A stretch of DNA of 64,000 nt from Eucommia ulmoides (taxonomy: Eukaryota > Streptophyta > Magnoliopsida > Garryales > Eucommiaceae): contig CM028329.1 in assembly GCA_016647705.1 (NCBI GenBank), positions 61,087,231 to 61,151,230 of the forward strand. The letters run 5' to 3'. A model generated the notes under the pieces. That model was not told the DNA's origin and ran no database searches. It saw only the letters and a list, made by a program, of their open reading frames with translations. Shown here piece by piece: positions 33,546 to 61,523 of this stretch. Made by a program: the position numbers and the translations under genes. The first letter of the stretch is position 1; each line of letters starts with the position of its first letter.

Positions 33546-33744
33546 TATTGATCATAATTACGTTATAGAGCTCGTACTATTTTGATCTATAATATAATGC
33601 AATTAGTTAGTTAATTTTGACTTCAACAGAAACAATTTGGAATCAAAAAACTATTGGCACTCCTAAATTGTTTAATTTGTACTCTGAAATCTGATTATAG
33701 AGTTTACGGACTGCGACTGCGATTGCCAAAAGCATTTTCTCGAA

Positions 33745-34965
33745 CATAAAAACGGAAAAGTTCAAACGCAGATCTACAAAACAAGAAGAATTCGCTTGAT
33801 TTCAGCCTCTAGCATGCAGTAATACTTTAAGCTATACATATTATACGTATATGTGTGTGTGTGTGTGAATGTGTATGTCATATACAGACTACAGAAACTT
33901 GGCCATGGATTTGGAAACACCCTAGGTTCCATGACTGGCATCAACTACGATTTTATTGTAAAGGAGAATACGTAGATTAGTGCTGCAAATTTGCATCTCA
34001 TATGCAGAGAAAGAACAAGGAATTCAAATTTGCAAGCGAAGAAGTGAAGATCGCGTTGGATTTCGAAAACAGATATTTCACAACGACAATCAACAGTGAA
34101 ATCATAACAAACTAGTTACAGCTACAAAACATGAACATAAAGAAGGAAAAGTTCAAACGCAGATCTACAAAACACGAAGAATTCGCTTGATTTCAGCCTC
34201 CAGTGAGCATTAATAATTTAAGCTATACATATTATATATGTGTGTGTGTGAATGTGTATGTCATATACACACACTACAGAAACTTGGCCATGGATTTGGA
34301 AGCACCCTAGGTGCCATGACTGGCATCAACTACGATTTTATTGTAAAGGAGAATACGTAGATTAGTGCTGCAAATTTGCATCTCATATGCAGAGAAAGAA
34401 CAAGGAATTCAAATGTGCGAGCGAAGAAATGAAGAGCGCGTTGGATTTCGAAAACAGATATTTCGCAACGACAATCAACAGTGAAATGATAGCACACTAG
34501 TTACAGCCACAAAACAAGAACATAAAGAAGGAAACGTTCAAATTGCAGATCTACACAACACGAAGAATTCGCTTGATTTCAGCCTCCAGTGAGCATTAAT
34601 AATTTAAGCTATACATATTATATATATGTGTGTGTGTGTGTGAATGTGTATGTCATATACACACAGACTACAGAAACTTGGCCATGGATTTGGAAACACC
34701 CTAGGTGCCATGCCTGGCATCAACTACGATTTTATCGTAAAGGAGAATATGTAGATTAGTGCTGCAAATTTGCATCTCATATGCAGAGAAAGAACAAGGA
34801 ATTCAAATTTGCGAGCGAAGAAATGAAGATCGCGTTGGATTTCGAAAACAGATATTTCGCAACGACAATCAACAGTGAAATGATAGCACACTAGTTACAG
34901 CTACAAAACAAGAACATAAAGAAGGAAACGTTCAAATTGCAGATCTACACAACACGAACATAGGA
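33745..34965. repeat. Three ~388-bp tandem units plus part of a fourth
   Basis: Unit starts at 33745, 34133, 34519 and 34910 (partial). Each carries 'aagttcaaacgcagatctac', a TG microsatellite, 'acagaaacttggccatggat', 'atcaactacgattttattgt' and 'cgttggatttcgaaaacaga'. Copies are highly similar, so the duplication is recent. A further partial unit is at 37465-37680. Confidence 0.9.
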
Positions 34966-35094: not shown

Positions 35095-35560
35095 ATGGAG
35101 AAAAAAAAGTGGGTGGGGGAACTAGCCACAGCCGAAAAAGCGCCATCCATCCACGGCCGTCTAACCACTGAGACAGAGGTGGAGAGATCGGGAAATGTGG
35201 GAGGATGGGACAAAAGCTTAAAAATAGAGCAGAGAAGGCAGCGTGGGGAACAAGCCACAGTCGAGAAAGCGCCATCCATCCACGACTGTCTAACCACCGA
35301 GATAAAGGTGGAGAGATTGGGAAATGTGGGAGGATGGGAAAAGAGCTAAAAAATAGAGTAGAGAAGGCGGCGTGGGGAACAAGCCACAACCGAAAAACCA
35401 CCATCCATCCACTTTCGGGAAGTGGGAGGATGGGGAAACAACTCAAAAAATAAAGCAGAGAAAGCGCGTGGGGAACAAGTCACACCCGAAAAACCGCCAT
35501 CCATCCACTTTTGGGAAGTGGGAGGATGGGGAAAGAGCTTCTGAACAAAGCAGTTAGAAA
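35095..35560. repeat. Tandem ~100-130-bp units
   Basis: Four to five units with 'gtggggaacaagccaca', 'gccatccatccac' and 'gtgggaggatgggg' repeat through this stretch. The long open frames on both strands here (up to 148 codons on the minus strand) are due to the repeated composition and have no recognisable domain, so I do not call a gene. Confidence 0.8.
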
Positions 35561-35818
35561 AAGAAAAAATAGAAACACTGCACAGAGGCAGGAAAATGTG
35601 CAGAGGCACAAGAGAAAACATGCAGGGAGCTAAGTGCAATTTCTGGAATAATGGCAGGCTGCACTTTAAACAACTTGCAAGTTGGCAGGGCGCAAAGTGT
35701 AAATAAACAGCTATTGTGCAATTTCGCAAGAACAAGCTGTCTTTCAACGGAGGAAATGAATCAACGCTGTCCTTCATCATAGAACACAGCAAAACGGTAA
35801 AACAGTAGATCGATTGAG

Positions 35819-36975
35819 GAGTTGTTTACCTATTAAATATTAAAAAAAAAAAAAATTACTGAAACAATTTACCTTTTAACTTAATTACCATACCAATGCA
35901 TTTCGCCCTTCACAAGGGCGAAATCGAATTTTTTTTTTTTTTTTTTTTGGATCCCGCCCTTGTGAACGACAGGATAAAAAAAAAAAAAATTTAATTTGAT
36001 CCCGCCCTTGTGAAGGGCGGGATCAAATTAAATTTTTTTTTTTTTTTAAATGTGATCTCGCCCTTGTGAAGGGCGGGATCACTTAAACGGCGACCAGCCG
36101 TTAACACGGCTGGTCGCCGTCTGCTTTGGCCGGTCGTTTGACCAGCCAAAGTTGCAAGGCTGCCTTCTTTTGCTAGCCTTCTAGGCTATAGATAACTTTA
36201 ATTTGAAAATTTGAAAACTCGGGATATGTGCACAACTTCGCCTCTAAATATTACTTGCCTGAGTTCATTAAAATTCACACTTCTTCATTTGCTCCTTCTC
36301 TCATTTGTTCTTCATTTTGATATTTTCTCTTCTAGTTACACTTCTTCTATTCAGACTTGTACTCCTCTATTCACAGGTTAGTATATTTTTAACGTTTTTT
36401 TAATTTAATCAGAATATTTTTTACCTTTATTTGTTAGTTAGTTGGTTAGTTTAATTGTTAAATTAAAAATTATATTTTGGCCATTTTCACATGTTTAAGA
36501 AGTGTGAATTTTAATGAACTCAGGCAAGTAAGATTTATAGGCGAAGTTGTGCACATATCCCGAGTTTTCAAATTTTCAAATTAAAGTTATCTATAACCTA
36601 AAAGCCTAGAAGGCTAGCAAAAGAAGGCAGCCTTTTAGGCTGCCTTCTTTTGCAGCTTTGGCCGGTCAAACGACCGGCCAAAGCAGACAGCGACCAGCCG
36701 TGCTAACGGCTGGTCGCCGTTTAAGTGATCCCGCCCTTCACAAGGGCGGGATCAAATAAAAAAAAAAAAATGCTGATCCCGCCCTTGTGAAGGGCGGGAT
36801 CAAATTAAATTATTATTTTTTTATCTTGCCGTTCACAAGGGCGGGATAAAAAAAAAAAAAAAAAATTCAATTTCGCCCTTGTGAAGGGCGAAATGCATTG
36901 GTGTGGTAATTAAATTAAAAGGTAAATTTTTTCAGTAATTTTTTTTTTTTTTAATATTTAATAGGTAAACAACTC
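35819..36975. mobile_element. 1.16-kb foldback element, perfect 10-bp TSD
   Basis: Termini GAGTTGTTTACCTATTAAAT and its inverse. The flanking target duplication is ATCGATTGAG at 35809-35818 and 36976-36985, a perfect match. The arms are inverted copies over most of the length, leaving a loop at about 36285-36500 that holds a promoter-like leader with a splice donor (CACAG/GTTAGT near 36377). Inside each arm are smaller palindromes: stems GATCCCGCCCTT around GTG or CAC (35998-36024, 36054-36080, 36727-36753, 36775-36801), a 14-bp stem ACGGCGACCAGCCG (36087-36120) and a CTTTGGCCGGTC stem (36123-36150), separated by long A or T tracts. A 10-bp duplication and long inverted arms fit a Mutator-like element. 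No transposase is present. Confidence 0.85.
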
Positions 36976-36985
36976 ATCGATTGAG

Positions 36986-59550: not shown

Positions 59551-59815
59551 GAGTTGTTTACATTTATAATATAAATTTAAAACAAAATTTCTGAAATAGA
59601 CCACTTTTCAACTTATATACGGAAATAGTGCTACCCGGGGTTCGGAATCCCGGGTTTGTGGGGCCGGCGGTATACCCGGGGTTCCAAACCCCAGGTATAT
59701 GAAAAAAAATATATATATATATATTTTATTTTTTTTGGTATATGCCGTTATACGCGGGGTTTGGTACCCCGGGTTCTACATAGAACCCGGGGTATCAAAC
59801 CCCGGATATAACCCG

Positions 59816-59850
<35 letters not shown>

Positions 59851-61523
59851 GTTTTTGCCCAAGAAATTTTTAAAATTTTCGGCAACTTTAAGTTAATTAA
59901 CGGTGGTCTATCGATATTTTAAATAAATCTAATTTTTTTGTGCATAAATTAGGTTCAAAATATTACATAATGTTTTTTACAACACTAAAAACGGACAAGT
60001 GGATGAATTTTAAAAAATCGCCAAAATTGACCAGATGAGTTGTTTCGATAACGGCAGAATTTTTTTCGGCAATTTAAAATTAACAAAAGATTGCATGTCG
60101 GTAACAGAAATGAACCAAATTTTTTGTATATAAACTATGTTCATAACACTACATAACAAAACTTAGAACACTAAAAACGGACAAGTGGATGAATTTTAAA
60201 TAATCGTCAAAGTTGATCAGACAAGTTGTTTCGATGATGATGCAGTTTTTTTGAAAACTTTGAGTTAACAAAAAATGGTCGTCTATCCGTAACAGAAATG
60301 ATCTTGATTTTTTTTGTATAGAAACTACGTTCATAATACTAAATAATAAAATCGAGAATACCAAAAATGGATTAGTGAATAATTTTTAAATAATAGTTAT
60401 TATCATAACATTTTATTACTCTTCAACGTTTCAAAAAACACTATATTGCTCTTCAATGTTTGGATGGACATAACTTTGCGCTCGGTGATCCGTTGGGGGC
60501 AATTTTTTTTTTTAAAGTTAGGTTTGATGTGAGTTATCACTCTGACTTTTGAAGATTTCAATTTTATCAATAGAACATGACACATGTTCGCAACGAAGAT
60601 TACAAATTTATTCACCTAATACTTCGAATCTAAAATTGAAGGTGAAAACGGGCTTTATTTGAAAAAATACTGGACCAAACCGCCTACGGCGTTTGCGACG
60701 CCTAGATCTTGAAAAAATACCAGAAATAAAAAAAAATAAAAATCGCCCCAACCGAACCACCGAGTACAAAATTATGTCCATCCAAATTTTTTCTATTATT
60801 TTACGTAAGTTTTATTTTCTCTCGATAACATATTATCCATTTTTGGTGTTCTCGATTTTATTATTTAGTGTTATGAACGTAGTTTGTATACAAAAAAATC
60901 AGGATAATTTCTGTTACCGATAGACGATCATTTTTTGTTAATTCAAAATTTTCAAAAAAATTGCATCATTATCGAAACAACTCGTCTGATCAACTTTGAC
61001 GATTATTTAAAATTCATCCACTTGTCCGTTTTTAGTGTTCTAAGTTTTGTTATGTAGTGTTATGAACATAGTTTATATACAAAAAAATTGGTTCATTTCT
61101 GTTATCGACATGCAATCTTTTGTTAATTCTAAATTGCCGAAAAAAATTCCGCCGTTATCGAAATAACTCATCTGGTCAACTTTGACGATTTTTTAAAATT
61201 CATCCACTTATCCGTTTTTAGTATTGTAAAAAGTATTATGTAGTGTTTTGAACCTAATTTATATACAAAAAAATTAGATTTATTTAAAATATCAATAGAC
61301 CACCGTTAATCAGTTTAAAGTTGCCAAAAATTTTAAAAATTTCTTGAGCAAAAACAAATTTTTTTTTTTTTTCGTATACCTGGGGTTCCGAACCCCGGGT
61401 ATACCGCCGGCCCCACAAACCCGGGGTTTCGAACCCCGGGTAACACTACTTCCGTATATAAATTGAAAAGTGGTCTATTTCAATAATTTTATTTTAAATT
61501 TATATTATAAATGTAACCAACTC
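59551..61523. mobile_element. 1.97-kb foldback element, 10-bp TSD
   Basis: Termini GAGTTGTTTACATTTATAAT and the inverse of GAGTTGGTTACATTTATAAT. The flanking target duplications are AACATATCCC (59541-59550) and AACGTATCCC (61524-61533), one mismatch. The inverted arms run about 59551-60400 and 60830-61523, around a loop at 60400-60830. Each arm carries nested palindromes built on ACCCGGGGTT/AACCCCGGGT (59632-59700, 59750-59812; 61377-61445 on the right), A/T tracts, and about three direct ~170-bp units with 'acactaaaaacggacaagtg'. The terminus is the same as in the element at 35819-36975. No transposase is present. Confidence 0.85.

Follow-up and report, generated by a model that had tools for sequence, protein, structure and literature searches.

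The maize element MuDR is organised around two convergent genes and has internally deleted derivatives, and interrupted gap repair has been described as a source of its internal deletions. Animal foldback elements consist of long modular arms around a short loop. Here we describe a compact inverted-repeat element in a window of 64,000 nucleotides from Eucommia ulmoides (the whole stretch of DNA analysed), together with the family to which it belongs. Like MuDR-type TIR-MULEs, this family has a MuDR-type DBD, MULE and SWIM domains, long TIRs with a putative promoter, convergent genes, a target duplication of about 10 bp and deleted derivatives; unlike them, it has a plant-mobile-domain (PMD) protein as its second gene product, and its TIRs carry arrays of GC hairpins and tandem repeats of ~190 bp.

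Several other described systems share single traits with the family. In several grasses and Amborella, according to the accessible part of Ikeda et al. (2017; PMC5418596), the PMD is fused to MULE transposases; in the present family, too, a MULE carries the domain, but in separate convergent frames, and no fusion was found in the three copies C14a, C13a and C11a. Tomato MULEs with tandem or multiple TIRs, for which a 9-11 bp duplication serves as a criterion (PMC3310237), are similar in their long TIRs with internal repetition and in the size of the duplication, whereas no hairpin arrays or loop inversion were found in the available portion of that text, where 'hairpin' occurs once and 'palindrom' is absent. 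The element Tm1 of root-knot nematodes is assigned in its title to a Mutator/Foldback family (PMC3169594); the likeness is that of the title and the start of the abstract, and the host is an animal. The nearest described processes, as far as the accessible parts of the two papers go, are the hairpin-associated microinversions of chloroplast DNA (PMC3123225, which also reports avian nuclear inversion hotspots without stem-loop association) and the template-switch loop inversions inferred in rRNA genes (PMC8794818). In both a loop inverts between short stems, as here; unlike them, the present case concerns nuclear transposon ends, with several hairpins per end and about a hundred ends. A literature search by title and start of abstract, with most subscription journals outside its coverage, found no MULE ends with inverting-loop hairpin arrays.

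Results

A compact inverted repeat with a perfect target duplication

The element proper spans positions 35819-36975 of the window and is an inverted repeat of 1157 bp, with the target duplication immediately outside (Table 1). Its termini, beginning with GAGTTGTTTACCTATTAAATATT and ending with AATATTTAATAGGTAAACAACTC, form a perfect pair, and ATCGATTGAG is present on both flanks as a perfect 10-bp duplication (35809-35818 and 36976-36985), which bears out the 1.16-kb inverted repeat with target duplication proposed earlier in a sequence-only reading of the window. The complementarity of the arms runs in long blocks, with an identity of 87.6% across the whole 501-column arm alignment and of 95.2% of the ungapped positions in the first 460 bp. 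Leftward of the element the window holds tandem arrays of ~394 bp (33742-34958) and 129/96 bp (35116-35534).

The same reading had placed several GC-rich hairpins within each arm, and a mechanical finder (stem of at least 9, at most 1 mismatch, stem GC of at least 40%, the longest of overlapping hairpins kept) agrees, returning four non-overlapping hairpins in the left arm and five in the right; more modules can be made out by eye. Two small corrections apply to that reading: the GATCCCGCCCTT-type stem corresponds to four modules per arm, including H1 (ATTTCGCCCTT) and the degenerate H2, and H7 of the right arm has only an eroded counterpart on the left. Both the plant leader and the splice donor that had been noticed in the loop are found there (CACAG/GTTAGT, 36372-36382). 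The hairpins are not peculiar to this copy but belong to the family's long TIRs.

Table 1. Features of the foldback element and its target duplication (window positions)
Feature	Positions	Strand	Status
Target-site duplication, left copy (ATCGATTGAG)	35809..35818		
Left TIR portion, homologous to outermost ~690-720 bp of full-length members, ends at deletion junction	35819..36501	+	
Hairpin H1, loop CAC	35900..35924		
Hairpin H2, degenerate in this copy	35951..35975		
Hairpin H3 core, loop GTG on + strand (outside-in: GTG)	35998..36024		
Hairpin H4, loop GTG	36052..36082		
Hairpin H5, never seen flipped	36085..36122		
Hairpin H6, loop GTTT (family: GTTT / AAAC)	36124..36151		
TATA-box position, CTCTAAATA in this arm	36242..36250	+	role inferred
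5' leader, homologous to leader of full-length members	36261..36376	+	role inferred
Splice-donor-like first-intron start, CAG/GTTAGT	36377..36382	+	putative
AAGAA, 5-bp microhomology, internal deletion junction	36497..36501		
Right TIR portion, outermost 479 bp	36497..36975	-	
TATAAAT of right arm	36533..36539	-	role inferred
Hairpin H7, right arm	36617..36653		
Hairpin H6, right arm	36655..36683		
Hairpin H5, right arm	36687..36720		
Hairpin H4, right arm	36726..36754		
Hairpin H3, right arm; + strand loop GTG = CAC outside-in, opposite to left arm	36774..36802		
Hairpin H2, right arm, degenerate	36823..36847		
Hairpin H1, right arm	36870..36894		
Target-site duplication, right copy (ATCGATTGAG)	36976..36985		

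The element belongs to a large family

A similarity search of the element's own genome (947 Mb) gave 849 candidates, of which 40 were scored. The terminal 26-mer, with up to 3 mismatches allowed, has 414 matches in the genome (211 forward and 203 reverse), while the same 26-mer written backward, used as a control, has none. Among 93 of the first 100 matches listed, ends facing each other at most 40 kb apart were paired into 27 elements, which range in size from 2.4 to 18.2 kb; 20 span 12.7-15.2 kb. Among all 34 paired elements, none is shorter than the window element (1157 bp). An exact 10/10 duplication flanks 27 of these 34 pairs; five have 9/10, one has an 11/11 duplication and one is without a clear duplication, whereas none of 1943 shuffled pairings reached a 10/10 match. 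The check suggested by the sequence-only reading, namely whether other genome copies lack the termini or the duplication, thus came out in the element's favour.

For the comparisons below we used a set of 114 family ends, 93 of which come from the first 100 listed of the 414 matches (7 were already in the set); these listed matches all have zero mismatches and lie on contigs C1-C13, so that the set is biased to young copies. Two rows of the leader and promoter alignment, C16a and C84a, are absent from the 114-end set.

Full-length members encode a MuDR-type transposase

We read five elements, with lengths of 6.4 to 22 kb, from end to end. Their inverted ends, of ~1.5 to ~3.5 kb, exceed the 100-bp criterion for long-TIR MULEs. 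The outer ~720 bp of each TIR corresponds to the window element's arms and leader, with the hairpins, the putative TATA box and the putative donor, and tandem repeats ~190 bp long follow inward. These repeats fall in the inferred first intron (for example in L012+L013 and L016-L018); at joined positions 9443-14940 of L016-L018 there are overlapping frames of ~1680-1810 aa on both strands, probably a long stop-free tandem repeat. Four of the five elements share a common interior with ~96% identity, one of these four with an additional ~6.4 kb inside; the 6.4-kb element holds a 2.6-kb part of the common interior.

Read from one end, the interior encodes a PMD protein (PF10536, E 1.6e-54; 3e-54 and 5.3e-58 in two further copies), and read from the other end a transposase with a MuDR-type DBD (PF03108), a MULE domain (PF10551, E 1.5e-17) and a SWIM zinc finger (PF04434). 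These three transposase domains exceed the curated cut-offs in the frames of full-length copies, and DBD_Tnp_Mut, MULE, SWIM and PMD also occur in the frames of further copies. In C14a, C13a and C11a, the three copies with both identified, the PMD and the transposase are encoded on opposite strands, in convergent frames. The coding regions of full-length copies are split over several frames, owing to introns or decay.

The assignment to MULEs follows from the homology of the window element's arms to the ends of full elements, the 10-bp duplication and this coding content. The foldback transposon, target duplication and plant leader of the earlier interpretation stand. That reading knew of no described family with this architecture, but the element belongs to the Mutator-like superfamily, as its full-length relatives encode a MuDR-type transposase. 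Long modular arms flanking a short loop do resemble animal foldback elements, as a separate FB/Galileo-like superfamily unrelated to MULEs would have them. We regard such an origin as very improbable: the MuDR-type DBD, MULE and SWIM domains of the full-length members speak against a non-MULE foldback family, and the 10-bp duplication lies within the 9-11 bp criterion given in the available portion of the tomato MULE survey (PMC3310237).

Two further possibilities concerning the ends were dismissed. Distinct left- and right-end lineages are ruled out by the equal same-side and other-side identities of the five elements (0.941 for both), and concerted arms are likewise set aside, as the identity of arms within an element is 0.937 against 0.918 between elements, consistent with weak homogenisation at most.

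The window copy looks like a deletion derivative

TATAAAT is found in 17 of 18 aligned ends, the exception being the left arm of the window element, with CTCTAAATA. In the 17 aligned rows that reach the donor, it reads GTTAGT in 13 and GTTAAT in 4. Judged by these alignments, the leader and splice donor would be the ordinary start of the family's genes. The window copy follows the family TIR for 683 bp on the left and 479 bp on the right, with AAGAA common to both portions at the junction, the footprint expected of a microhomology-mediated internal deletion. By its homologies, the window copy is thus best classed as a non-autonomous, internally deleted TIR-MULE.

Hairpin stems are abundant and conserved in sequence

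In the first 480 bp of the 114 family ends, at least two hairpins are present in 113 ends and at least three in 108, whereas 114 single-base shuffles (one per end) gave 110 sequences without a hairpin and four with one. The palindromes are therefore far beyond chance. Palindromes are difficult to assemble, and an assembly artefact might be suspected; given at least two hairpins in all but one of the sampled ends, together with consistent duplications, we consider its likelihood next to negligible.

Across five stems (H1 and H3-H6), non-consensus bases amount to 0.7-2.8% per site, a rate lowered by match patterns that drop decayed stems and so make the stems look more conserved. The corresponding rates are 3.1% for the promoter and leader and 17.7% for the linker at positions 42-80, the latter possibly inflated by alignment noise. 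Stem pairs were broken in 243 cases and replaced by an alternative Watson-Crick pair in only four, and a hand count attributes approximately 188 of the 243 broken pairs to C-to-T or G-to-A changes at C-G pairs. Compensatory change is almost absent, which gives no hint that pairing itself is under selection, and stem covariation as a mark of RNA or structural selection was rejected. What looks conserved in the stems is their sequence and not their structure, a pattern that would fit symmetric protein-binding sites.

These data also bear on the idea that the hairpins are kept for RNA, with transcripts from the TIR promoter folding into siRNA precursors or regulating the leader. The TATA box, leader and donor do lie inside the arms, and the element folds as RNA to -733 kcal/mol, from which we can only infer that a transcript might be a source of siRNA. 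However, H1-H7 are all outward of the inferred TATA box, so that transcription from that promoter would miss the hairpins of the same arm, and read-through into the opposite arm would be required; with compensatory changes almost absent as well, we find this explanation improbable.

Hairpin loops occur in both orientations

Across the 114 sampled ends the stems are nearly constant, while the loops are found in both reverse-complement orientations. The clearest case is H6, where the 103 matched ends have AAAC in 50 and GTTT in 47; a switch from one to the other requires four base changes, and the six other loops are each one base off AAAC or GTTT, with none midway. At H7 (70 matched ends) there are 41 A-runs and 29 T-runs, and at H4 (106 matched ends) GTG occurs 90 times and CAC 4 times. 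At H1 (112 matched ends) the loops are GTG in 79, CAC in 18 and CAG in 7; the last differs from CAC at one base and from GTG at two, and may represent a mutational step between them. Thus H1, H4, H6 and H7 combine an unchanged stem with both loop states. H5 does not: its loop, mostly TTNNCA, was flipped in none of 97 matched ends. The patterns failed on 17 ends for H5, 11 for H6 and 44 for H7 out of the 114, and the failing rows are likely to be more decayed. The counts for H3 (CAC 42, GTG 30, GCG 26 and CGC 2 in 113 matched ends) are weaker because of an optional extra module beside it. Orientation counts for H2 were left out, as its pattern partly re-reads H3; in the window element's left arm it returned CTTGTGAAG, whereas the true H2 there is CTTGTGAAC.

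Opposite orientations are also met within single elements. Read outside-in, the left H3 loop of the window element itself is GTG and the right one CAC, and the arms of one element differ in orientation in 15 of 29 cases for H6, 6 of 12 for H7, 11 of 26 for H3, 2 of 24 for H4 and 0 of 28 for H1. In the most closely related case, the ends L039 and L084 have a single difference in 256 aligned flanking bases, yet their H6 loops are opposite.

Inversion and recombination on the trees

We followed the loops on trees built without the hairpins, leaving out the ends L050 and L111, which have no leader anchor. Ambiguous loops were excluded from the tree orientations, so that for H1 (15 ambiguous and 2 ends off the tree) 95 of 112 were used. 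The orientation of H6 changes 13 or 15 times in the two tree runs, compared with a mean of 2.4 for a single site, and only 2 of 373 columns reach 15 changes or more. For H7 the count is 13 to 14. With 3 and 4 changes, H1 and H4 do not exceed ordinary sites, 122 and 88 of the 373 columns changing as often. Counting only well-supported branches, there are four independent changes for H6, four for H7, six for H3 and two each for H1 and H4.

The copies probably recombine, which makes the number of inversions uncertain. On the same tree the alleles of H5 show 18 changes, and the H5 allele is associated with the orientation of H6, whose loop is ~34 bp away (chi-square p 1.6e-5), in a mixed manner, each of the five common H5 alleles being found with both H6 orientations. 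This association and the 18 changes of the H5 alleles mean that recombination or gene conversion may inflate the event counts. The two orientations could then be old alleles, with one origin per hairpin, spread by gene conversion or recombination and with no ongoing inversion. Besides the H5 alleles, the clustering of H6 orientation on the tree (15 changes, against a mean of 33 and a minimum of 24 in 200 shuffles) is in line with this explanation, as are tree columns with up to 18 changes, a sign of recombination noise. However, for L039 and L084 the conversion tract would have to be short, the number of H6 changes is above the single-site mean, and H1, H4, H6 and H7 must still each have inverted at least once. 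We therefore think old alleles unlikely, though they deserve serious consideration, and take recurrent in-place inversion as the best reading of loops in both orientations, with a number of events that recombination among copies may inflate.

H5 is the most stable among the hairpins folded (-23.6 kcal/mol) yet was never flipped, so stability alone does not drive inversion. Either the function of its loop depends on orientation, or factors other than stability determine inversion.

A second foldback family with other stems

Another foldback at 59551-61523 has a left terminus starting with the same GAGTTGTTTAC and a 9/10 duplication, and carries other GC hairpin stems and 186-bp tandem repeats. 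It has 2123 candidates in the genome, 40 of which were scored, and exact 10-bp duplications flank both further elements (2 of 2) for which both ends were fetched. Its HpC loops, matched in 17 of 22 ends, are TACATA in 7 and TATGTA in 7; the two differ by two changes and neither single-step intermediate was seen, which gives moderate support for inversion. HpB has CGG in 7 and CCG in 7 of 22, one base apart, which could reflect a transversion, and none of 21 HpA loops was flipped. The hairpin-array architecture thus recurs with different sequences, and going by these counts loop inversion probably recurs too. One end of the first family (L065, C6:8123137) adjoins a ~1.2-kb pair of second-family matches (C6:8123139-8124362), which suggests a nested or adjacent insertion.

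Discussion

We consider it very likely that the window element is a deleted TIR-MULE that was moved in trans and that carries conserved palindromes, some of which invert in place. Its ancestor would have been a ~14-kb element with long TIRs and two convergent genes, for a MuDR-type transposase and a PMD protein. Interrupted gap repair or template switching may have removed the interior, and the family transposase, recognising the TIR, would have moved the window copy in trans. What is conserved of the GC-rich palindromes in the TIR would be their sequence, most simply because the transposase or a host factor binds them as symmetric sites. Some of these perfect short palindromes would also fold back on themselves or extrude while they are copied and invert in place, leaving loops in both orientations.

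A bolder proposal is a flip-flop system, in which the H6 and H7 palindromes, and not H5, would invert in place several times faster than base substitution, and this inversion would be coupled to gap repair after excision, when the element is copied. The architecture would have been kept in the second family with unrelated stems, so that palindromicity itself would serve transposition or escape from silencing. We hold this proposal to be doubtful.

The window element itself is an ordinary deleted MULE that shows a route from a large MULE to a compact foldback element; the unusual and useful feature belongs to its family. With 414 end matches and usually several hairpins in each sampled end, the family is a ready record of inversion within one genome, and it allows the rate of inversion to be compared with stem length, loop and position. 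The contrast between H5 and the neighbouring H6, with its loops near 50:50, makes the mechanism testable.
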